Shown one piece after another: positions 28,201 to 64,000 of a DNA stretch of 64,000 nt; within the stretch, counting starts at the first letter, position 1; each line of letters opens with the position of its first letter. The position numbers and the translations under genes were made by a program. Source of the stretch: Gautieria morchelliformis (Eukaryota; Basidiomycota; Agaricomycetes; Gomphales; Gomphaceae); assembly GCA_015179125.1 (NCBI GenBank), contig WHVA01000236.1, forward strand, positions 101,859 through 165,858, given 5' to 3'. The notes beneath the pieces are model-generated. The model made no database searches. It was not told where the DNA came from and saw nothing but the letters and a program-made list of their open reading frames with translations.

Positions 28201-30210
28201 TCATGACACCAGGCTGGTGGTGAAGCTCGAAATCAAACAGGACAAGTAGAGGGACCATCTAGCCTGCCTGCAATTAAGCTTCTTCGCAGTGTGAAAATAC
28301 TCCAGGTTCTTGTGGTCTGTCCAGATCTCAATGCGATGCTTAGTGCCTTCAAGGAAATGTTGCCATTCCTCTAGGGCAGGAATAATCACCAGCACCTCCT
28401 TATCATGAATCTCAAAATTTCACTCCACAGGAATGAGACTCTTGGAGTAAAATGCTATTGGATGCCACTTGTCATCATCTGGAGATTGCTGTGACAGGAC
28501 TGCACCAGTGGTGACATCTGAACTGTCAGCCTCTTCCCAGTATGGTTGATTATCATCTGCAAAGTGCAGGATTGGCATTGATGTGAATAGCAGCTTTAGC
28601 CCATCAAAAGCCTGCTGGTCGCGATCACCCCAGGACCATTGCACATCCTTCTTTGTGAGCTTGAACAGGGGTCGTGCATGATGTGAGAAGCTCTCAATGA
28701 ACCGGCGATAAAACTGGCAAACCCCAGGAAGGCCTGCACCTCCTTGCGATTTGCTGGGGTTGGCCAGTCCATGACACCTGCGACCTTGATGGGGTCAATC
28801 TCCACCTTGCCATGTGACGCAATGAGCCCAAGATACTCAATCTTAATTAGCTCGAACTCGCATTTCTCAGGATGAAGGTAGAGTTTGTGCTGACGTAGGC
28901 ACTCAAGGACTATTCACAGAAGTCAGTGATGCTCCTTGAGGGTATTGGTGAAGATCAGGATGTCATCTAGGTACACACACACATGCCCTTCCATGATGAG
29001 GTCTTAGAAGATATCGTCCATCATGGTTTGGAATGTCACAGGACTGTTTGTGAGTCCAAAGAACATGACAAGGGGTTCGAAGAGGCCGCGATTAGTACAG
29101 AATACAGCCTTCCACTCATCGCCATCCTTTATCCGCACATTATTAAAACCCCATTGCACGTCTAGCTTGGTGAAGTATTTCGCTCCACAAAGCTGCATGA
29201 TGCAGAAATGATGGGAAGGGGGTAATGGTTCTTCACTGTCATGGCATTGAGCATGTGATAATCCTGGACCAGTCGCAGTGACCCATCCTTCTCGAAGAGC
29301 ACTGGGCTGGCCATGGCGATTTCCAGGGGCAAATGCGACAAGTGCGCAGGTTCTCCTGCAGGAATTCATCCAGCTGCAACTGTTCGCTGGGGGCAAGTGG
29401 GTAAACCTTGCATGCAGATGGCTTGGCTCCTGGCTCAAGCTCAATTGCATGGTCCCATGTCCTGCATTCGGGAAGTGAATCAAAGGACTCCTTCGTGAAG
29501 ACATCCTTGAAGTCACAGAGGTATGGAGGGATGAGTTCCTTTTCCTCTGGGGGTACACTGCAAAGGGCCTTCTCAGCTAGCTGCGAAATGGTTGTGGTGG
29601 CTGCGGTAATGGGTACAGGCACATTGGGCATGTACACAGTAGCAAACAGGCAGTTGCCTGGCTGCAGAATGGGCTCAACATCACCTGGCTCATCTTCTTC
29701 TGTGTCACTCTCTTCCTCTTCCACCATCTGAGGCAGAAGGCCCATGTGGCATGCAAGTATCCTCACCTCCTCCTTCTGCTCTTCCCACAGTGTTGCTCTG
29801 CAGGTGTGACACTGCGCAGGGCATCGACTTAGTGTCACCTCCTGCATTCGCCAGTTAACCTCTGGGTTGTGCTCCCGGAGCCATGGATAGCTGAGGATCA
29901 TCTTGTGCTTCCCAAGGTTCGTAACGGCAAGGACAGCACATTCAGAGTGGTCACCGAATCGCAGGATGACATCAATAACATTGCGAATTGCTCCACCCTC
30001 ATTGGGGGTGCCATCAACATTGTACACAGGGGCAGGGCATGTGAGCGACCGCATGGTTAACTTCTCAGTGGCGACAAATTTGCTGTCGATGAACAACCCA
30101 GTTGCACCACTGTGAAGGAGCACAGTCACCCCTTTGACCTCAGCGGTTTCTGTCATCTGGATTTCTACCTTGAGGTTCTGCGAATTTGGAGAGGGAACGG
30201 ATATGACCAC
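28201..30210 (-). pseudogene. gypsy protease, reverse transcriptase and RNase H, heavily broken
   Basis: Frame 29239-30210 starts with an aspartic protease whose site reads LLHSGATGLFID, so the catalytic Asp of DSG is His. It continues through EVNWRMQEV and an acidic linker to the RT start ([15 protein letters not shown]). RT continues in another frame at 29004-29558 ([42 protein letters not shown]). The YLDD site (VYLDDILIF) is at about 28955-28985. RNase H pieces follow at 28420-28644 (ADSSDVTTGAVLSQ) and 28201-28395 ([10 protein letters not shown]). Integrase is almost wholly absent. Multiple frameshifts and stops make it non-functional. Confidence 0.85.
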
Positions 30211-30463
30211 AAAGTGCTTGGGAAGGGCTCACTCCCAATGCTTCAATTGTGGGGAAGGACTTTTCAGAATGTCGTTGGTTGATGTGTCTGTATCACTTGC
30301 TGTGTGCGACCCAGTTCTGACACATGAATTGCATCTTCAGTATCTGGGGCTATTGACAGGGCAGCAAAGCGATTGGACAGGGGCAGCAAGGGAACATCTC
30401 TCACTCGCTGCGTGACACAAAATCCTCCACATCTTTCTTCTCAGCCTCTTCCTCAGCGACATC

Positions 30464-31525: not shown

Positions 31526-32141
31526 TGTCAGGGTATGAGAAAGGATTGCTCAAATTGCTGCTTTCGAAGGGTGTTCGATTCGAAGTCAGGCAATTTCACA
31601 ACCGGTGCTCTAGAGAGTGTTTTCTACTATAAGTGAAACCTAGGCAAATGCTCTACACTCAAGTGGCGAACTGGCGAAGGGGGATCCAAAGTAAGATAGA
31701 GAACTATATACACAACACAGACATACCTGGTGAAGGGGGATCCAAAGACAAAACTCTAAGGAACCCTTTCGCCACCTAACTACGACTAAAAGTAAGCTCG
31801 GGCATGCTAGCCTGATCACTGAATGCCTGAGTTACATAAGCAATCATGCCAGCAATAACAGGGCTGAACAGATAAGGAAGGAATGATATCGGAAGGGGCT
31901 GGAACAGGAAAGGAAATAAATGGAACACAAGACAGAAGGATGCTGAAAGCTAGAAGAAGCTCAGGGGCCACCAATAAGATGCTGCGATAAGTTGCACGCC
32001 ATGGTAATGTGCAAGCGGTGATAATGCACATGCCGATAACGCACCTGCGATAATGCATGTGCGATAATGAACCTTGCGATAATGCACCTTGCGATAATGC
32101 ATATTGCGATAAAGCAGTGTGTGATTGGGGTTCCCCTGACA
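31526..32141 (-). repeat. 5' LTR of the decayed gypsy element
   Basis: On the minus strand it starts TGTCAGGGGAACCCC and ends CATACCCTGACA (616 bp). A run of units resembling TTGCGATAATGCACC covers about 32010-32112. The right flank (TCGTCCC...) is Helitron coding sequence. Confidence 0.75.
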
Positions 32142-34137
32142 TCGTCCCACTTTGGATTGGCAGTCATAGTAACAAACAAATCAGGGGGACCCTTCTCCCT
32201 TCTTTGTTGTAATGGCTAAGGAGTTCTGGCAGTTTTGATTCGTGTCCTGTGTACTTCCTTGAAATGTCGCAGGCAGAATGAATTTTGTGCCCAAGCTGTT
32301 TGCATCTCCAATGTCATTGTTCAAGCCTCCAAATGAATCCACCATATGGTTATACTACTCAGCACGCAGAGTGTATTGATTGGCCCTGATCCACCTCAGT
32401 CTGCTTTGCTCTGTGGCAGCCAAGGAGTCTACAATGTACTGCTGGAACAATTTGCCACCATGCAGGAGTGTTGTGGGTTCTCTCTCTTTCTGGAATAGAC
32501 GATATGCATGGTACTGTATTTGGGTGACCTGCCCCCATCTGTTTGGGTTGGCCTCCTCAGCACCCTCTGGATCATGATAAGGAATACCTGGTTGCCATCC
32601 CAACTCTACCCTGGGAAAGAGCAAGACATAATGCAGAGTGGCATAGTTTGGATTGGTATCCAATACCCTTCTGAAAGGTCCACCTTTGAGCTGGACAATA
32701 ATATGCCTAGGTTCAGGGTTGATGCCATCTCCAGGAAGAACCACCACAATCTCATCTGGGTTTTGGGACATTATATCTCCTAGGATCCCTGTGTGCCCTG
32801 TATGTGAGCCTTGCCTGGATGTTACCATGCTGTTCTTGAGCGCTGAGCCTCTCAGCTGTTTGTTTATATGTGGCGACATGAGGATTTCACAGCAGGAGCA
32901 TTTCCTGCAAGTCTCCTAAGATAGTTGGAGACAGACCCCTATTACAATTTGTCCTCTGTGCCAAAGCCAGTGCAGGATCATATATGTAAAGCTGGGCATA
33001 CTTTGTATTGCCTTCATTGTCAGGGAAGAGAGAGCCATGGATATGATCCAATTCACCCTGTAGCTTGAGCACATATGCACCATGACCCTCCTGAAGCAAA
33101 TCTTGGTCAAAGTCGGCCCCCACAGAAGTGAATGCAAATGCTGCATTATACTGCCTGATATTCTGGCGAAATTCTTTTCCCTCAGAGTCCTGGCCTTCTA
33201 AGAGCTGTGTCAATGGCTGAGGGACCTCTGGCAGCCCTTCCAGCTGCACCTTTCCTTCCATACAACAATCACCAAACCTGGGCCGCACATTTGAGGATTT
33301 CTGCAGGTGTTCTGCCCTCCAGTGGAATTCTCTACAGTCAGGGCAGGGGACATCCATCCAACCCAGATCATCAGGCTGCACATCAGCCTCAATTATTCTA
33401 GCACGACCGAGTGGCATAGGAGGAGGTTGCTGAGGACACCATCAAGGTGCAGGGAGCAGCTGAGGAGGTGCAGGGAGTGGCTGAGGAGGTGCAGGGAGTG
33501 GTTGCGGATTGGGAGCTGGTCGTAGATTAGGTGCAGCCTGAGCCCACAAAGCTGCCACTGCTGCAGAACCTACTACAGGAGGTGGCGCTGGTTGTACAGA
33601 TGCAGGCCTGTGCCTTCCCAAAGGCCGCAATGCAGCTGCCTGAGCACACAAGTCTGCAATGGCTGCTGAACCTACTACAGGAGCTGGCTGTGCAGGGTCT
33701 GGCCTATTTCTTCTCAGGGGCTGTAATGGTGGGATAACTGCTAACTGAGCACAAAGGGCTGCCACCTGCTCTCCAGGACTGAGATTAGGAGGATGGGATG
33801 GTCCCGCAAGCATAGGAGGATGAGATGATAGTGCCAGCATAGACAGACGTGAAGAAGGTGCAAGCATAGGAGGATGTGATGGCCCGGCCACAGGTTGTTG
33901 AAAAGGATCAGTGACATTGCTTCTAGGAGGAGGGTTAGGGATGGCAAAAGGCTGTGGTGGAGGGGATGGCTGGTCCTGAGCTCTGACAGCAGTAGCAGCA
34001 AGTGCACGTCCTCTGCAATCAGTGGGCAATGTCATATGACCGTGCTCCTCCTCCCTTGCACTTTCACCCTCCTGCTGATGATTTGTCTCTGGAGTAGATG
34101 GATCCCTGAGAAATGCAGGTATAAGGAGGATGTTCAC
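32142..34137 (-). pseudogene. Helitron Rep/helicase N-terminal half
   Basis: This is a second copy of the Helitron protein seen at 59576-64000. It reads, right to left: Pro-rich N-terminal repeats 33442-34137 (PFQQPVAGPSHPP, SPGEQVAALCAQLA), after an acceptor (ATTTCTCAG) identical to that of the other copy; a Cys/His segment VPCPDCREFHW; 32887-33417 (SSNVRPRFGDCC, RQYNAAFAFTSVGADFD, LQGELDHIHGSLFP); 32355-32879 (IVVVLPGDG, PNYATLHYVLLFP); then DLFVTMTANPKWDD, where the gypsy LTR cuts it. The Rep catalytic motifs and the helicase are missing. Frames change between blocks. No Helitron 5' terminus was found to the right. Confidence 0.8.
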
Positions 34138-34415
34138 ATTGACAACAATGTATATTCTTCTAGGATATATTAGATATCTTTTAAAATATCAACCCTAACC
34201 AAATTCATAATCCATCATTTTGAGCAACTTGTATATTGTGGACATCCTAAATTTTGTTGAATGTTCTGATATTTTAAAAATATGGTTGTATGTGCTAAAG
34301 CATGGTGTGTATTGATATAACAGAGCAATTTCAGAGAGGATGTGGATCACTATATATTAAAAGTATACATGAAACATGTTAGATGTACAATCACAGAATA
34401 TAGAAGCAAGTATGG
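34126..34415 (+). repeat. Dispersed repeat of about 300 bp, copy 1
   Basis: It begins GATGTTCACATTGACAACAA and ends near GTACAATCACAGAATATAGAA. Two further direct copies lie at 35118 and 45166. It is AT-rich, with no open frame and no terminal inverted repeat seen. Confidence 0.75.
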
Positions 34416-54028: not shown

Positions 54029-56579
54029 TCAAGCTTGTGAAGAGTTGGCAAGCAGTTTGGCAAGGGGACCAGGTTTGTTGGGATAACGCAGATGGAATTC
54101 TTGTAACGCTTCTGGGGAGTGTTCTACATCTTCAGCAGACTGCCATGTAGGGTCATCATATCCTGTCCACTTAACACGGTAGCGGAGGCCATGAGGATGG
54201 TATCGTTTATCAATCTTGCTATCCACAATACTTTCCACTTCATATTCTTCTTCACCATGGATTTCGACTGGAGGAGGTAGGTCATGATGGCGAGAAGGAA
54301 ATGGGTTGTCTGTCACAGGTTCAAGGAGTGAGACATGGAAGACATTGTGAATGGCATGAAGATCAAAAGGGAGCCCAAGTCGATAGGCATGTGAAGAAAT
54401 CTTCTCAATAACAGGGTAGGGCCCAATTCGCTTGTGGTCAAGCTTCTTTGATGGTCGTTTGGTCTTGATATTTTCTGTAGAGAGCCAAACATGTTGACCA
54501 ACAGCTATATTTGGGACAGGAAGTCGTCGAGAGAAGGTGGCCTCTGAATATTGGTCGAGAGTTATGCGGAGTTGTTGACGCAAGTATTTGTGTAACTCAG
54601 CAAGATCAGTGGCCATCTGTTGGGCAATCGATGATGGGACAGAGTCCAAGGAGACATCAAGGCGAGGATGATACCCCTTATTGGCAAAGAAGGGAGTAAC
54701 ACCGGTGGCAGAGTGTGCAGTGCTGTTGTAAGCAAATTCTGCCAGAGGGAGTAAGGAGATCCAATCATCCTGCTGATAGTTGATATAAATGCGCAAGTAT
54801 TGCTCCAAGATTTGATTAATGCGCTCCGTCTGTCCATCAGTTTGAGGGTGATAGGCAGTGGATAAGTTGACCTTGATATTCAGCATGTGACAGAGAGATT
54901 TCCAGATATTAGAAGTAAAGTGCTTTCCCCGATCCGAAACCATGTTGGAAGGTAGTCCATGCTTGGAAAAGACATGCTGAATGAACAGGGAGGCAACTGT
55001 CTTGGTGTCAATGTTTGTCATAGTGGGAATGAAGATTGCTGCTTTGGTGAGCCGGTCAACAATGACAAGTATTGAGTTGTGACCATCCGATTCAGGGAGA
55101 CCATCAATAAAATCCATGCTGATCGAACTCCAAGGAAGCTCTGGGATAGGCAGAAACTGGATGGGGCCATAAGGCTTGTGCCGAGTGGTTTTGGCTCGCT
55201 GACAGGGTGCACATGAAGACACATATTGAGTGACAGTGTCACGTAGGCGAGGCCAGTAGTATTGGGTTTGAATGTTCTGGACAGTTTTGCGAATTCCAGG
55301 GTGTCCAGAAAGTATGTGATCATGGTGGGCACGTAGTATATCAAGACGTATTTCTTCCACATCTGGGACATAGGTGTGTGATTTGTGAAGAAGGAAACCA
55401 TCAGGGGATAGAGACCAAGGATTAGGAGTGGTTGAAGTGGGAGGGTTTGTGGGTGGAGACTTGAGGCGATGGATGTGTTCTTGTGCATCTATGTCCTTTC
55501 GAAGAGCATTCTTGATTGCAGTGTGAACTGAAGCAGGATCAAAGATAACAGTGGCAAGGAGTTGGGCTTGAGATAAGACTTGACCAGCCTTGAGAATTGA
55601 TTGGAAGTTGTGGGGGTTAGCTGATGCATAAGTGCCTTCCCCCCCTCTAGGATACACGTCGCCTCGACATGTCAGTGCGTCTGGTTTAGTACCAAGGCGA
55701 CCAGGTCGATAGCGAATTGTGAAATGGAATCCAGAGAGGTATTCAGCCCAACGAGCTTGACGGCGAGTGAGTTGCTTTGAGGTCATGAAATACTCAAGGT
55801 TCTTGTGGTCAGAAAGAACCAAAACAATATGTGAGGAACCTTCCAGGTAAGCACGCCATGTTTTGAATGCTTGAAAGATGGCAAGAAGTTCCTTGTCATA
55901 GATTTCATAATTGAGTTCAGCAGCGACCATACTGCGAGAATGGAAAGCAACTGGGTGGATATCACCATCAAGAGGCAATATTTGGGACAGGATCATAGCA
56001 ATGGCATAGTCCGAAGCATCAATTTTGAGGACAATGGGGTTGTTGGGGTCGAAGTGGATGAGAATGGGAGCAGTGGTGAAACTGTGTTTGAGGGAATCAA
56101 ATGCTGCTTGACATTCTGTCGTCCAAATGTAGGGTGTGTCCTTCCAAGTCAACTTGTTGAGAGGAACAGTGATCTCAGAATACTTGTCAATGAAGCGTCG
56201 ATAGAAGTTGCAGAAACCTAAGAAGGATTGGAGGTCTCGAACTCCTTGAGGGATGGCCCAGTTACGAATTACTGTGGTTTTGGCAGAGTCCATTGAAACA
56301 CCATCATGTGAGATGATAAAGCCCAAAAACTCTACAATGTTGGTGTGAAACAGACATTTTTCTGGTTTGGCATGAAGGTTGTGATCCCTGAGACGTTGTA
56401 AGACCATACGGACATGTTCCTGATGCTTGGTGGCATCCTCCGAGTAGATGAGGATGTCATCAATATAAATGACAACAAAGATGTCGGCCATGTCACGGAA
56501 AATATCATTCATGAAGTGTTGGAATGTGGCTGGTGCATTGGTGAGCCCAAACGGCATGACCAAGTATTCGAAGGAGCCA
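54029..56579 (-). CDS. Ty3/gypsy pol: reverse transcriptase to chromodomain, cut by a Helitron
   Basis: The 844-codon frame is intact from the RT middle to the stop. In order: GSFEYLVMPFGLTNAPATF (RT), VVIYIDDILIYS (active site), FLGFCNFYRRFI, RNase H ([25 protein letters not shown]), and the integrase zinc region (HHDHILSGHPGI, CAPCQRAK). The integrase catalytic residues follow: SMDFIDGLPES (Asp), VSDRGKHFTS (Asp) and HPQTDGQTERINQ (Glu). It ends with a chromodomain (EYEVESIVDSKID, YRVKWTGYDDPTW). It lacks its own start: the frame enters from 56579, where a Helitron is inserted. Gag, protease and early RT must lie beyond the window. With no break inside, the element was young when cut. Confidence 0.92.
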
Positions 56580-57029
56580 TCTAAGAGTTAAACGAGCACG
56601 GTGGGTGGTTGTGGGCGCCGCTTACAAATAATGTTACGTGAAAATTAGGTCAGCGGAGCGAGCGGCGCAGCCGCGAGCCCTAGGCCCCTGGCCCAGGCCA
56701 GACCATTGACGCTGCGCAGCAGCGTCCCAGGTCACGTGACCGGTTCATGTTCGTCGTGACCATACGCGAGGGTGGTCCGTGCACGACCCTTCGCTCGGTA
56801 TAAAGAGAGCGATGCTGCAGCACCGCACTCCCCACTGGTGTCCTCCTGTGTTCTGGCTGTGGTGGGCTCACTACTGCTTTGGCTGGGGTCTTGGTGTCTT
56901 TCTGTTGGTCTCTGTGTGTCTCTGGGTGTCTTTCTGTGTGTCTCTGGGTGTCTTTCTGGGTGTCTCTGGGTGTCTCTGGGCTTCTTTGCCTGTGAATTGA
57001 CACCAGCTTCTGCTTCAATGTCGTGTATA

Positions 57030-57300
57030 TTTTTTGATATTTTTTCGCAAATTGCTATCAATACACCTAACTTGCTAACCTTAATAATAGCCAACTTAAA
57101 TATCCTGTACATTTTTTTGATATTTTTTCGCAAATAGAAATCAATAAATCTAACTTCCTAACCTTAATAACAGCCAACTTAAATATCCTGTACTTTTTTT
57201 TGATATTTTTTCGCAAATAGATATCAATAACCTATTCTGACTTTGCTAAAGTTAATAACAACTTCTGTTTTAATGTAGTGTGTTTTTTTGTATCTTTTTT
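57030..57300. repeat. 83-bp tandem repeat, three to four copies
   Basis: The core TTTTTGATATTTTTTCGCAA starts at 57031, 57114 and 57197, 83 bp apart, with a decayed fourth copy. Each unit also has CTAACCTTAATAA and a purine-poor T-run. Confidence 0.85.
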
Positions 57301-57424
57301 TCAAAAAATAAATATAGATATCAATAAATTATCCTGACTTTGCTAAAATTAATGACAACAGCTGCTTAAACGTGGTTTCTTTTCCTATTTTATATATGTC
57401 ACAAAATAGATACTGATACATGTC

Positions 57425-58065
57425 CCTGATATGTGTGAGGACATGTTACGTGTGAGGACACGCTACCTGTGGGGACACATTACGTGCGAGGACACGCTAC
57501 CTGTGAGGACACGTTATGTGTGGGGACACACTACCTGTGAGGACACGTTACATGTGGGGACACGCTACCTGTGGGGACAACCTGTGAGGACATGTTACAT
57601 GTGGGGACACACTACCTGTGAGGACACGTTGCGTGTGGGAACATGTTATGTGTGAGGACACACTACCTGCGAGGACATGTTATGTGTGAGGACATGCTAC
57701 CTGTGAGGACACGCTACCAGTGGGGACACGCTACCGGTGGCGACACGTTACGTGTGGGGACAAGCTACCTGTGAGGACACGCTACCTGTGGGGACACGCT
57801 ACCTGTGGGGACACGTTACGTGTGGGGACACGCTACCTGTGGGGACACGTTACGTGTGGGGACACGCTACCTGTGGGGACGCGCTACCTGTGGGGACACA
57901 CTACCTGTGGGGACACGCTACCTGTGGGGACATGCTACCTGTGGGGACACGTTACGTGTGGGGACACATTACGTGTTGGGACATGCTACCTGTGAGGACA
58001 TGCTACCTGTGAGGACACGTTGCAGGGCACACTACCTGTGAGGACACGTTACATGTGAGGACATG
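57425..58065. repeat. 17-bp minisatellite, about 37 units
   Basis: Units are CACGCTACCTGTGGGGA and CACGTTACGTGTGGGGA with few variants. As 17 is not divisible by three and stops are absent, all forward frames are open and give peptides such as GTRYLWGHVTCGDTL. These frames are by-products. Some units contain the palindrome TACGTG(T). Confidence 0.9.
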
Positions 58066-58201
58066 CTATCCAACTGCACTTTGGGTCTTCCCCCATTTCT
58101 GATTTTGGTATTGTTTCTGGTTCTGTGAGAGTGTCACCGGAGGATCAGCTGGCATATTGATATAACCACATTGTCAAAATTCAGGATCCCCAAGATCACT
58201 A

Positions 58202-58402
58202 TTGGATCTATCTCACAATGCACCAGCTTTGAAACCTGTTGATTATGACAATAGGCGCAATCTTATAATCTCTGATGATTCAGTCAAGACTATTACCACT
58301 TTCATGTCTAGAGTCGCTGGGAGGCCCATCCCAGAGGTCGAGAGAGAGCTCTGCATGTTCGGCTGTTCCATGGGTGCATACATGATTCATGATACTATAT
58401 GA
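58202..58402 (+). CDS. Short frame in the non-autonomous Helitron
   Basis: 66 codons with MDLSHNAPALKPVDYDNRRN, FMSRVAGRPIPEVEREL and CMFGCSMGAYMIHD. It lies just inside the 3' end. It could be a remnant of the Helitron protein C-terminus or a captured exon. I do not recognise it. Confidence 0.25.
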   Translation: MDLSHNAPALKPVDYDNRRNLIISDDSVKTITTFMSRVAGRPIPEVERELCMFGCSMGAYMIHDTI

Positions 58403-58509
58403 TCAGGGATATATTTTGCATGATCCTATTTACCCCAATGCACTTGACCTTACTGATTCACTTGACCTTACTGATGCATTTGACCTTACCAAGGCGCTGG
58501 ACCCACACC

Positions 58510-58537
58510 CCCGCGCGAAGCGCGGGTACCCACCTAG
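58510..58537 (+). terminator. Helitron 3' hairpin and CTAG end
   Basis: A 7-bp GC stem (CCCGCGC/GCGCGGG, loop GAA) is followed 11 nt later by CTAG and a T in the flank. In Helitrons this marks where rolling-circle replication stops. Confidence 0.8.
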
Positions 58538-58901
58538 TATCTAAGCGTGAAACGCGCTCAGTGGGTTGTGGGCGTCGAGGCTGACAAATAATATTACAAA
58601 TAATATTACGTAATAATTAGGTCAGCGGAGCGAGCGGCGCAGCCGCGAGCCTAGGCCCAGGCCCAGCCCAGACCAACCGGTCTCTGGGGCTTGCCGGTAC
58701 AGCGCTGGCTGACCTGGCAGACGCTGCGCAGCCGGTCCCCTCTGCCCTCCTTCTACCATCATCCCATCCCATCCCATCCCTCCCACCACCTGCATCTCTT
58801 CTATTAACATCCTATCTAGGTTCTTTCTGGTGAATTTGATGCTACTGAAACTGCCTTTTTATGTTGGTTATTTATAATTTCGCTTTTTTGGCCTTTTTTA
58901 G

Positions 58902-59575
58902 GCACTTTTCAAGTGATATTTGTCCTGTCACTGCTGCACTGAGTACCTGGGTGTTTCTGGTGAGTGTTATGCTATTGTACCTGCCTTTTCTTGATGCTTA
59001 TTATGTTGTTATTTGCTATAATTTCGCTTTTTTGGCTTTTTTTAGGCACTGTTCAAGTGACATTTGTCCTGTCACTGCTGCACCTGCTATCTGGCTGTTT
59101 CTGGTGAGTGTTATGGTATCGTACCTGCCTTTTCTTGATGCTTATTATCTTCTTATTTGCCATAATTTCGCTTTTTTGGCTTTTTTTAGACACTTTTCAA
59201 GTGACATTCATTCTGTCACTGCTGCACTTGCTACCTGGCTGTTTCTGGTGAGTGCTATGCTATTGTATCTGCCTTTTCTTGATGCTTATTATGTGGTTAT
59301 TTGCTATAACTTTGCTTTTTTGGCATTTTGTAGGCACTTTTCAAGTGCATTTGTCCTGTCACTACTGCATACCCTACCTGGGTATTATCCCTTTCTGGTA
59401 AGTTTTTGTAACTGTATCTGCTGTTTGCGATATTTATATTAGGATCAGTGGCTTTGCAATCCGTCTGAGATACCCGCACAGCCTGTTTTCCCTGAGTTTG
59501 CCTTATTCTGCTTGCGATGTAAGTCTGATATTGATATCTGTATTCTCTCTCTACTCTTATGCCTGCATTTCTCAG
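58902..59575 (+). repeat. Tandem exon-intron cassettes, 144-bp period
   Basis: Candidate exons 58902-58959, 59046-59103 and 59190-59247 (58 bp each) and 59334-59397 (64 bp) each follow a T-rich tract plus AG and precede GTGAGT or GTAAGT. The introns between are 86 bp. A further exon, 59443-59518, and an intron, 59519-59575, lead to the coding exon at 59576. Landmarks recur exactly 144 bp apart. A partial unit precedes the first. The through-reading 193-codon frame (58861-59442) looks membrane-like but crosses the introns. Confidence 0.7.
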
Positions 59576-60728
59576 GGATCCATCTACCCAGAGAGCATCC
59601 GTCGGCAGGTGCGTCAAGGTGCGAGGGAGGGGCAGGAGGTGATGACACCACCCAGTCATCGGAGAGCGCGTCGGAGAGCGCATATTGGAGCTCAGAACCA
59701 GCCACCCCTCCACCACCGCCTTTTGCCATCCCTCACCCTCCTTCTAGAAGCAGTGCAGCCGATCCTTTTCAACAACCTGTGGCAGGGCCATCACGTCCAC
59801 CAATGCCTGCGGGGCCATCACTTGCTCCTGATCCCAGTCCTACAGAGCAGGTGGCAGCCCTTCGTGCTCAGTTAGCAGTTATCACACCATGGCAGCCCCT
59901 GAGAGGACATAGGCCAGACCCTGTACAGCCAGCTCCATTGCGCCCTCCTACGCTTGCGGAGCCATCATATCCACCTGATCCCAGTCCTGGAGAGCAGGTG
60001 GCAGCCCTTCGTGCACAGTTAGCAGCTATCCCACGATTACAGCCCCTCAGAAGAAATAGGCCTGACGCTGGACAGCCAGCTCCTGTAGCAGGTTCTGCAG
60101 CAATTGCTCAGTTGCGTGCTCAGGCGGCTGGAATTGGACAACCTGTAGTAGGCTCTACAGCGGTGGCAGATTTGCGTGCTCATGCTGCTGGTTACAGCCT
60201 ATCCCAGCACAGCCCTTGGGAAGACACAGGCAGGCACCGTTACAACCAGCTCCTAGACCTCCTGTAGTAGGTTCTGCAGCAATTGCTCAGTTGCGTGCTC
60301 AGGCGGCTGGAATTGGACATTTGGCAGTAGGCTCTACAGCGGTGGCAGATTTGCATGCTCACACTGCTGGTATACAGCCTATCCCAGCACAGCCCTTGGG
60401 AAGACCCAGGCAGGCACCTTTACAACCAGCTCCTAGACCTCCTGTAGTAGGTTCTGCAGCGGTCGCAGCATTGCGGGCTCAGGCTAATGCAGTAAGACCA
60501 ATGCCTCCGCTACTCCCTGCACTTCTGCGGCCTCTTCAGCGACTGCCTGCACCTCCTCGGCCTCCTCAGCCACTCCCTGCACCTCCTCAGCGTCTTCTGC
60601 CACTCCCTGCACCTCCTCAGCCTCTTCTGCCACTCCCTGCACCTCCTCAGCCTCCTCAGCCACTCCCTGACCTCGGCAGCGTCCTCAGCAACCTCCTCCT
60701 CCTATTCCACTTGGTCGCTCTAGAATAA
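59576..60728 (+). pseudogene. Helitron protein N-terminal Pro/Ala-rich region
   Basis: The exon starts after CTCAG with frame IHLPREHPSAGASR and continues PFQQPVAGPSRPP and SPTEQVAALRAQLAVI. A unit of about 180 bp (VVGSAAIAQLRAQAAGI, PIPAQPLGRPRQ) starts at about 60091, 60270 and 60450. The first unit is one base short, so the frame shifts near 60195 (59512-60267 to 60216-60728). It ends in Leu/Pro-rich repeats. The same region is found at 33442-34137. It is likely disordered. Confidence 0.65.
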
Positions 60729-60739
60729 TCGAGGCAGAT

Positions 60740-63353
60740 GTGCAGCGTCATGATTGGGTCCCATGGTTGTTCCTGCCCTGACTGTAAGCATTGCACTGGA
60801 TGGCAGAACGCCTGCAGAAATCCTCAAATGTGCGGCCCAGGTTTGGTGATTGCTGTATACAAGGAAAGGTGCAGCTTCCAGAGCTGCCAGTGCTCCCTCA
60901 GCCATTGAGACGGCTCTTAGAGGGCCAGGACCCTGAGGCCAAACAGTTTCGCCAGAACATCAGGCAGTACAATGCTGCATTTGCATTCACTTCCTTGGGA
61001 GCCGAGTTTGATCTAGATTTGCTTCGGGAGGGTCGTGGTCCATATGTCCTCAAGCTACAGGGCGAACTGTATCATATTCATGGCTCTCTCATCCCTAACC
61101 CTGGGAGGCGGATACAGTATGCCCAACTTTATATCTATGATCCAGCATTGGCTTTGGCACAGAGGAACACCCGTAACCCAGGTCTGTCTCCAACTATCAT
61201 GGGAGACTTGCAGGAAATGCTCCTCTTATGCAATCCTCATGTTCCCATATATAGACAAGCGGCTGAGAGGCTCAGAGCTCAGGGACAGAATGGTGAGATC
61301 CGGGCTAGGCTCACGTACAGGGAACACAGGGATCCTAGGAGGTATAATATCCCTACTGCGGATGAGATTGCGGTGGTTCTTCCTGGAGATGGCATCATCC
61401 CTGAACCTAGGGATATTATTGTCCAGCTCAAAGGTGGACGTTTTAAAAGGGTATCCGATATGAATCCAAACTATGCCTCTCTTCACTATGTCTTGCTCTT
61501 TCCCAGGGGAGAGTTGGGGTGGCAACCGGGTATTCGCTATCGCCAATTACCAGACGGGCGTGAGCGAAGTGGGCATGTCACCCAAATTCAGTTCCATTCC
61601 TATCGTCTCTTCCAGAGAACAGAAGAACCTACAACACTCCTGCGTGCTGGCAAATTATTCCAGCAGTACATTGTAGACTCTTGGGCCGCTGCAGAGCAAA
61701 GCAGGCTGTGGTGGATCAGGACAAATCAACACACTCTCCGTGCTGAGATGTATAACCAGATGATGGATGCCTTTCATCGCAATGACAATGACAGAGATCC
61801 AAACAACTTGGGCATAAGATCCATTCTGCCTGCCACATTTCAGGGGGGACACGGGACATGCAGGAAAACCTGCAGAACTCTCTGGCCATTTCAAGGAAGT
61901 ATGGTGTGGCAGATCTCTTTATTACCATGACTGCCAATCCCAACTGGCAGGAGGTATTGGATGCATTGTTGCCCGGACAAACTCCTCAGGACAGACCTGA
62001 CCTGGTGTCGCGGGTGTTCCAGCTCAAAAAGAAATACCTCATTGACTTGATCGTCAAGGAAAAGATTTTGGGGAAACCGTCGCTCGCGTCCACACCATTG
62101 AATTCCAGAAAAGGGGACTCCCACACATGCATATTCTTATCTGGTTTGAACGAGATTCCAAGATCAGACATCCACATGAGGTGGATTCAATGATTTCGGC
62201 AGAGTTCCCTGATCCAGAGACTCATCCTGTCCTCTACCGGTTGGTCTGTGAGCTGATGACACATGGTCCCTGTGGACAAATGAAACCAAACGCACCCTGC
62301 ATGGAAAATGGCAAGTGCAAGAAAAACTTCCCAAAGCCATTCTGTGAGGAAACCAGTCTGAATGAGGATGGATATCCAAAATATCGTCGTCGCAATGATG
62401 GAAGGCTGCACAATGTCAGAGGTGACATGCTGGACAACAGATGGGTTGTGCCATACTCTGCCCTGCTCTTGCTCAAATTCTGGTGTCACATCAACCCTGA
62501 ACTCACCATCAATGTGAGGTGTATCAAGTATATCCACAAGTATCTCTACAAGGGCCATGATCGGACCACCATGGAGTTTGGTCGCACCCAGGATGAAATT
62601 AAGCAGTACCTGGACGCTCGCTATGTCAGTGCTCATGAGGCCTGTTGGAGGTTGCTGGAGCGGGAAATCCACACCCAGGTGCCTGCAGTCATGGCACTGC
62701 CAGTCCATGAAAAGGACCACCACACAATCATCTTTGATCCCAACCAGGATGTGGACAACATCCTGGAAAGGGCTGAGGCGAAAAAGACACCGCTCATGGC
62801 TTACTTTGAGGCCAATGATATCTACCCTGAAGCACGTGATCTGCTCTATGTGGAGTTTCCTGAGCATTTTACCTGGCACTCACAGGACAAGGTATGGACA
62901 CCACGCCAAGGAGGTTATAGCATCGGTCGCCTTCACTTTGCAAACCCTAGATCAGGAGAGAGATTTTTTGTGCGCACTCTCCTCACAGTGGTCAAGGGGG
63001 CTAGATCCTTTGAGGAGCTTAGGTCGGTGGATGGCATACAATATGCTACTTACAAGGAGGCCTGTCGTGCAAGGGGACTTCTGGATGATGATCAGGAGTT
63101 GAGGTTGTGTCTCCAGGAAGCCAGTGGCATGAAAACAGGTGCTCAGCTCAGACATCTCTTTGCCACCATCCTTGGCCATTGCAATCCATCGGGCCCCGGC
63201 AGACTATGGGATGGCTTCAGGGAGCACATATGTGATGATCTCAGACATCAGCTCCAAATCAGACATGGTATGCAGAATCCACAGGACGATCAGGTTTATG
63301 ATTTTGGCCTCTTTCTCTTGGAAAAATCCTCCAGCAGGGTGGAATGTCCTTGA
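60740..63353 (+). pseudogene. Helitron Rep (HUH nuclease) region
   Basis: Rep nicks and joins single strands to start rolling-circle transposition. A Cys cluster (CSCPDCKHC, about 60763-60790) precedes 60791-61930 (SSNVRPRFGDCC, IVQLKGGRFKRV, LHYVLLFPRGELGWQPGI). A frameshift near 61860 leads to 61858-62193 (GVADLFITMTANPNWQEV). Another near 62068, in a T/G run, leads to 62127-63353. The HUH pair (PHMHILIWFE) spans 62124-62132, and the catalytic Tyr region reads CIKYIHKYLYKGHDR near 62520-62565. The frame stops at 63353. Catalytic residues look kept while the frame is broken. Confidence 0.85.
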
Positions 63354-64000
63354 GCAGCTTTGATGATATGCCTCGGGTGGCAGGCGAGTGGGAGGCCCTC
63401 ATTGGAAACAGGTTCATAGCTGAGCAGAGGGACTATGACCTGTTGAAGAGAGGGACATAGCTGATGAGGAGGTTCCCAGGCTGAATGAGGGGCAAAGGTC
63501 TGCGCATGATCAGATATTACGGTCGGCACTGACCAGAGATGCTCATGGGAAACCTGATGGACAAATGTTTTTTGTCACTGGCTCAGGTGGTGCTGGGAAA
63601 TCATTCACATGGAACACTCTAATCCACTCCTGTAGAGTGGAGAGCCTCATTGTGATTGCAGTAGCCTCATCTGCAATGGCTGCACTTATCCTCACTAAGG
63701 GTACAACCTCTCATAGCATGCTTGGAATTCCCATTCCTGTCCATGAGCGCTCTCTCTCCTTCATCACAAGAACTCTGACAAGGCTGACATGCTGAGACAG
63801 GCCAGTCCCTCATCTGGATGAGGCTGCAATGCAGCATCGCCATGCCATAGAGGCCATTGACAGGACACTGAGGGATTTCCTTGACAGCCTGACAGACCCT
63901 TTGGTGGCATCACAGTGCCTTTGGAGGTGACTTTCAGCAGACTCTCCCAATTGTCCCTAAAGCTCCAAGGAGGATATCGTGGGAGCTACCCTTCAGAAGT
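63354..64000 (+). pseudogene. Helitron helicase (Pif1-like) start
   Basis: After the Rep frame, LNEGQRSAHDQIL and MFFVTGSGGAGKSFTWNTLI give the Walker A motif (about 63583-63606), followed by VIAVASSAMAALIL. The frame breaks near 63790. The Walker B region (LIWDEA-type) near 63815 and GGDFQQTLPI near 63930 lie in other frames. The rest is outside the window. Confidence 0.8.

Follow-up and report, generated by a model that had tools for sequence, protein, structure and literature searches.

The last 64 kb of contig C267 in the 122-Mb assembly of Gautieria morchelliformis (64,000 nucleotides, hereafter the window) contain two Helitrons, E1 and E2, which lie head to tail within a gypsy-type pol gene, 2 bp apart. 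The initial annotation offered two origins for this arrangement, a later element landing exactly beside the 3' end of a resident one, or replication past the terminator. The questions are which of these produced the pair, and whether the pair stands alone in the genome. The features concerned are as follows.

54029-56579, minus strand: gypsy-type pol, comprising part of the reverse transcriptase (RT), RNase H, integrase and chromodomain, interrupted within the RT domain by E1
56580-58537, plus strand: E1, complete non-autonomous Helitron of 1958 bp, TCTAAG...CTAG
57030-57234, plus strand: AT-rich 83-bp direct repeats in E1
57434-58068, plus strand: 17-bp minisatellite in E1, about 38 copies
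58510-58526, plus strand: 3' terminal hairpin of E1, with a 7-bp stem and a 3-nt loop, 11 nt from the end
58534-58537, plus strand: CTAG, the 3' end of E1
58538-58539, plus strand: TA spacer, read as gypsy target bases between the two insertions (empty gypsy copies have GAGCC-ATATCTTG)
58540-64000, plus strand: E2, 5' part of an autonomous-type Helitron with broken reading frames, running off the contig
60788-63353, plus strand: Rep pieces of E2 (Helitron_like_N, PF14214) in several frames
63439-63795, plus strand: PIF1 helicase piece of E2 (PF05970, 6e-23)

Direct reading of the letters bore out the head-to-tail pair and its 2-bp spacing to the base. The left boundary of E1 falls between 56579 and 56580, where ...GAAGGAGCCA meets TCTAAG; its CTAG occupies 58534-58537, the TA 58538-58539, and TCTAAGCG begins at 58540. 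The two elements share their 5' terminal sequence as claimed, each starting with TCTAAG and carrying GGTCAGCGGAGCGAGCGGCG, at 56648 in E1 and at 58620 in E2; when both strands of the 64-kb window were scanned by approximate matching, GGTCAGCGGAGCGAGCGGCG turned up nowhere else. E1 is complete, with an A before TCTAAG, a hairpin, and CTAG followed by T; the hairpin folds with z = -2.87, and 2 of 200 shuffles fold equally well. The host gene retains an 852-aa open stretch (54029-56587) with profile matches to RVT_1 (from profile position 113 of 205), RT_RNaseH, rve and Chromo, and the RT match is interrupted by E1, which places both elements inside gypsy pol.

The view that an autonomous-type and a dependent form stand side by side also held. 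Readable in the Rep piece of E2 are HMH and KYIHKYLYKGHD, which we take to be the HUH and tyrosine motifs. Since the Rep and PIF1 pieces are spread over several frames, E2 is a decayed element, and its right end and the remaining gypsy RT lie outside view because the contig stops at window base 64000. A 7,114-bp relative on contig C182, with 94% identity to E2 over 4.3 kb, has the same kind of ends and terminates in TACCCACCTAG. E1, on the other hand, contains no Rep or helicase piece and resembles this coding relative at the tips only (79% over the first 125 bp, 89% over the last 64 bp, and a 42-bp piece just before), so that, judged from its sequence, E1 would be a dependent form filled with the 83-bp and 17-bp repeat arrays. 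The expectation that its ends would recur was confirmed by full-length relatives of E1 with the same ends at other loci. Another Helitron, likewise decayed and about 80% similar to E2, is present at window positions 32139-34188 on the minus strand, with a Helitron_like_N piece at 32355-32915 and RVT_1 and RVP_2 retroelement pieces nearby (29004-30228).

The family has the hallmarks of canonical Helitrons, in which the hairpin lies 10-12 nt before a 3' CTRR. E1 and E2 start with TC (TCTAAG), and other family tips start with TT; E1 ends in CTAG, preceded at 11 nt by its 7-bp stem. Insertion took place between A and T without target duplication, as the empty gypsy copies show for the left end of each element and as two arrays described below also show, with one exception after G (L013). 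A RepHel protein, in which an HUH Rep with two tyrosines is joined by a PIF1 helicase, is represented in E2 by the PF14214 and PF05970 pieces in broken frames. These TC and CTAG ends and the AT target set the family apart from Helitron2/Helentron elements, for which the available text of PMC5148889 and PMC4067079 gives non-canonical ends and a T-rich or T/A target. At least 150 Helitron Rep matches stand above the cut-off in the genome (150 of 865 candidates scored; three with an internal stop), which makes a supply of transposase plausible; matches were found in none of 14 control genomes. On contigs C101 and C122 (G000) the Helitron matches have matching layouts and equal scores, offset by 823 bases, reflecting either duplicate contigs or a segmental copy.

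The origin of the TA can be read from gypsy copies that lack the insertions. A search with a 280-bp gypsy query yielded a list of 40 matches; loci were given for 12, one of which is the window. The insertion point reads CCATATC in ten of the other eleven loci, and one C is missing in L071; TCTAAG stands at this point in none of the eleven, although the initial annotation had named an intact gypsy copy already containing it as evidence against insertion. The empty copies read GAGCCATATCTTG, and three of four close copies have GAGCC-ATATCTTG where the window has GAGCCA, E1, TA and E2 in succession. By this comparison the TA is gypsy's own sequence and both elements entered AT dinucleotides between A and T, which indicates two separate insertions and no replication past a terminator. 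The proposal of a separate later landing, using two AT sites, thus gained support; its counterpart, replication past the terminator, found none, given that the TA is gypsy's own and that E1 and E2 differ.

We then asked how common such stacking is. The Helitron ends are not chance matches, as the 3'-end pattern occurs 1,112 times in the genome (565 + 547) against 1 + 2 for the reversed control, and TCTAAGAGTKAAACG occurs 214 + 203 times against 0. Forty 3' ends were sampled as a consecutive run of listed exact matches (places 41-77 and 81-83; places 78-80 lay in loci already fetched). A recognised 5' tip follows flush after 26 of the 40 (nine TCTAAG, eight TTACACTATATG, five TTCCTATAG and four others), one is followed by TA and a tip, two by a probable further tip (TTACAATATAAAAGG) and 11 by something else; all 40 are followed by T. 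Among the skipped places, two are flush and one has a host flank. Read from the other side, 13 of 20 consecutive TCTAAG 5' ends stand flush behind CTAG, one behind CTAG plus TCTAAGA, and six behind other sequence. All six are preceded by A, and one of the flanks, that of L088, is itself a Helitron 3' end in truncated form rather than ordinary host sequence.

Exact genome matches point the same way: TATCCACCTAG joined directly to TCTAAG occurs 257 times and CCACCTAG joined to TTACACTATATGAAA 167 times, each with a control of 0, and ACCCACCTAG followed by TCTAAG within 30 bp occurs 119 times (control 0). Among the 100 of the latter that were listed, 89 are flush, six are spaced and five have a spacer starting with ATGC. 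The ATGC case examined (C36, L111) lacks a hairpin and is no Helitron end, so that all five were left out and 95 family junctions were kept. Each of the six family spacers (TA three times, TCTA, TTACACTA and TCCTCTCCTCTA) has T as its first base and A as its last. For the C78 element, whose spacer is TTACACTA, no right end was detected in C78:6700-8200. The genome therefore holds at least 513 flush junctions (257 + 167 + 89), and contig C204 has five between 318711 and 338683. The TA spacing, which the initial annotation had thought worth comparing in other arrays, is not the usual form, as 89 of the 95 listed family junctions are flush and three have TA. The window pair is one case of a genome-wide stacking habit, and a near miss of its usual flush form.

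Head-to-tail arrays would also be expected if rolling-circle replication ran past the terminator and produced concatemers. In favour of such an origin, Helraiser makes circles with exactly joined ends (available text of PMC4778049) and tandem arrays have been cited in support of rolling-circle transposition (available text of PMC5876387). A concatemer should consist of near-identical adjacent units, and we compared 29 complete units excised from the fetched loci for their best relatives. The best relative lies on another contig for 28 of them and, for L018_4473, two units away on the same contig (L019_3282); it is the neighbour for none of the 29. Over the first 400 bp, TCTAAG elements of the same locus rank 4th to 24th of 25, except in L021, whose two TCTAAG elements are 97% alike (ranks 1 and 3) and are not adjacent. 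Neighbours differ in 5' tips and bodies and, compared end to end with gaps counted as differences, are 77% identical in L027 and 67% in L024. Near-identical adjacent units were thus absent among the units and junctions examined. For the window pair a read-through concatemer is ruled out by the gypsy TA between the elements, and as a general explanation concatemers are very improbable.

A subtler possibility is that a leaky terminator carries a neighbour along, so that composite units multiply and many junctions stem from few events. The next tips are indeed uneven: TCTAAG follows 37 and TTACAC 12 of the 100 TATCC-type ends listed, and 22 and 15, respectively, of the 100 TACCC-type ends listed. 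Fossil internal 3' ends followed by AGGTAAGG also show that terminators have at times been bypassed. However, when the left 500 bp were compared with the right 500 bp at 38 junctions (37 flush and that of the window), relatedness on the two sides was uncorrelated (Mantel r = 0.045, P = 0.18; within junction types P = 0.43), and pairs above 0.9 on both sides numbered 10 against 7.5 expected (P = 0.14). L010 and L018 have left units that are mutual best relatives, whereas the elements to the right of them are not. Composite mobility was rejected on the Mantel test as the main source of the junctions, and we regard it as rather unlikely; a few of the junctions alike on both sides may be copies of one event, with some shared ancestry. 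An E1-like element followed by an E2-like one occurs in L017 as well (97.4% identity to E1 over aligned positions, 96.9% to E2 over 400 bp). Because the same two subfamilies are flush there and TA-spaced in the window, they have met twice.

Empty sites were also found for whole arrays. Second copies of host flanks were sought with 14 of 17 flanks, after one repeat flank had swamped the results. For a two-unit array at C2:65300-68864, whose unit-unit junction was read and is flush, the flanks are joined as GCATACTAATA in the four repeat copies read, of eight listed. For an 8.4-kb array at C162:151883-160308, with three units implied by its ends, both listed copies show the flanks joined, apart from a single-base substitution adjacent to the site. 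No host bases were lost or gained at either site, and each array thus occupies a single AT. The right flank of L028 (C143:237066-237175) is a 110-bp host sequence that is identical at no fewer than 28 places, itself included, with seven pairs of copies 4,267-4,271 bp apart; it is probably an LTR.

These data bear on a technical concern. The family is highly repetitive and the window contig ends within E2, and repeats could have been wrongly joined during assembly. Yet the empty gypsy site predicts the TA, T follows every sampled 3' end, and two arrays have matching empty sites; we therefore rejected an assembly artefact as extremely improbable.

The ends, the AT targets, the occupancy of one AT by each of two arrays, and the unlikeness and independence of neighbours are direct observations, and they suggest how the stacks may form. 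A newcomer would enter at the boundary of host and resident, with the host A on one side and the T that opens the resident's 5' end on the other. Host A and resident T would together serve as the AT target, and each insertion would rebuild it on the left. Since the boundary would be renewed every time, flush arrays of unlike members, with CTAG followed directly by TC, could accumulate, and would presumably grow at the 5' side. Such landings would account for the flush junctions, the T behind the sampled 3' ends and the A that precedes almost every outer 5' end; a landing that misses the resident 5' end by a few bases would leave a spacer of the T...A form. In the window, GAGCCA, E1, TA and E2 stand in order, and TCTTG is expected after the CTAG of E2. 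If the tips had no advantage over other AT sites as targets, the flush share should be about 1e-4, estimated with no more than some 3,000 tips, about 8.7 million AT and two orientations, against about 0.65 seen (26 of 40), so that active targeting would be needed. The cause may lie in the transposase, as the RepHel HUH nuclease must nick between A and TC at the 5' end to start transposition; it might favour the 5' ends of residents as the places to nick a target, and there attach an incoming element that is probably circular.

Insertion at the 3' side would yield an identical flush junction. In that case the second element would enter between the resident CTAG and the host T, and arrays would grow rightward. 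In maize, Du et al. 2008 (PMC2267711, available text) found lines in which the left Helitron of one flush pair is present and its right-hand partner absent; such lines fit this order unless the partner was excised later, and the TCTAAG 5' end of L013 follows G inside another tip. On the other hand, a target between G and T would be required at every flush junction, breaking the AT rule each time, although A precedes all six sampled 5' ends without CTAG and six of the seven 5' ends in the long fetched loci that have no CTAG directly before them, L013 with its G being the seventh. For this reason we prefer landing at the 5' side and consider the 3' side unlikely. The idea of a landing beside a resident 3' end thus stands as regards a separate landing, but the 3' side is less likely than the 5' side, which alone keeps the AT rule at flush junctions; the order itself we infer, as an allele pair showing it was found at no locus. 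Taken together, it is probable that E1 and E2 are members of one large canonical Helitron family that entered a gypsy RT gene in two events at AT sites 2 bp apart, and that this family stacks by newcomers joining at resident 5' ends.

Several loci depart from the common pattern. In L013, on the minus strand of C555, a TCTAAG element starts at 56161, 23 bp into a TTACAC-type tip (...AACAGCTCG followed by TCTAAG). Its 5' end, which stands after ...CTCG, shows that the AT rule is not absolute; the element either landed outside the rule or had this end rebuilt. The L024 junction has TCCTATAGG in place of TTCCTATAGG after CTAG, and in L080 (C142:197249-197383) CTAG is followed by TCTAAGA and then TCTAAGAG, that is, by a 7-base tip copy ahead of the tip. 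At least seven 5' tips occur (TCTAAG, TTACACTATATG, TTCCTATAG, TTACTAGG, TTACTCTATTAG, TCTATAG and TCAATAG), all seven with a similar GTTGTGGG-type stretch behind them and nearly identical 3' ends. The five loci L112-L116, with CCACCTAG joined to TATGAAAG, initially resembled insertions into a resident tip, 8 bp from its start, but the three followed upstream showed no TTACACTA remnant. Their tip is 8 bases shorter than TTACACTATATGAAAG, and TATGAAAG may be another 5' tip variant. A fossil internal 3' end (CACCTAG, then AGGTAAGGG) was noted in eight rows from seven loci (L010, L011, L015, L018, L020, L021 and L023), 0.7-1.5 kb before the working end, which is TATCC-type in seven of the eight; judged from its sequence, it records a terminator bypassed in the past, by which the element acquired its new 3' end.

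Adjacent Helitrons as such have been described before. In the parts of the literature at hand, the closest parallel is the maize pair No.1/No.2 (AF466202), for which the authors inferred consecutive insertion and named both orders, including host A plus resident T (Du et al. 2008, PMC2267711). It shares the flush CTAG-TC junction between two unlike Helitrons; the maize case is a single pair whose order was left open, whereas hundreds of junctions, together with spacers and empty sites, inform the rule here. Tandem and adjacent Helitrons with perfect head-to-tail junctions are known from Myotis bats and silkworm, as cited in the available text of PMC2267711 and PMC4067079; the tandem arrays were put down to a bypassed termination signal, whereas no neighbour pair examined here looks like a concatemer; the accessible part of PMC4067079 also places distantly related Helitrons directly adjacent in bat and maize. 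According to the portions of PMC5148889 available, one FoHeli4 copy of Fusarium is inserted in front of another, 2 bp short of the latter's 5' end, like the window pair, but that case is single and of the Helitron2/Helentron type, with other ends and target. HELPO of Pleurotus ostreatus has TC/CTRR ends, insertion between A and T and RepHel in common with the present family; the available text of PMC4289320 reports 37 validated copies in strain PC15, and the paper nowhere uses the word 'tandem'. Mothra of rice is, like E1, a non-autonomous Helitron of about 2 kb with an AT-rich block and a second repeat block, but it is a plant element, and stacking is not mentioned in the available text of PMC4683698. 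In the accessible literature on adjacent or tandem Helitrons (maize, bats, silkworm, Fusarium) we found no description of a family whose sampled 3' ends mostly abut a further Helitron. Within that literature, the window pair alone resembles adjacent Helitrons already known, and what is new is stacking as a family habit.

Head-to-tail Helitron arrays have been taken as a sign of rolling-circle transposition or of a bypassed terminator (available text of PMC5876387 and PMC4067079). The arrays examined here consist of unlike elements, and two of them each share a single AT, so that a perfect junction alone is no proof of read-through. We see about even chances that the transposase lands preferentially where it also initiates, at the 5' end of any resident family member, and would thereby build ordered, 5'-growing stacks of several subfamilies, much like site-specific integration at an origin of transfer. 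With hundreds of junctions in one genome, the insertion order that was left open for the maize pair in 2008 becomes testable.
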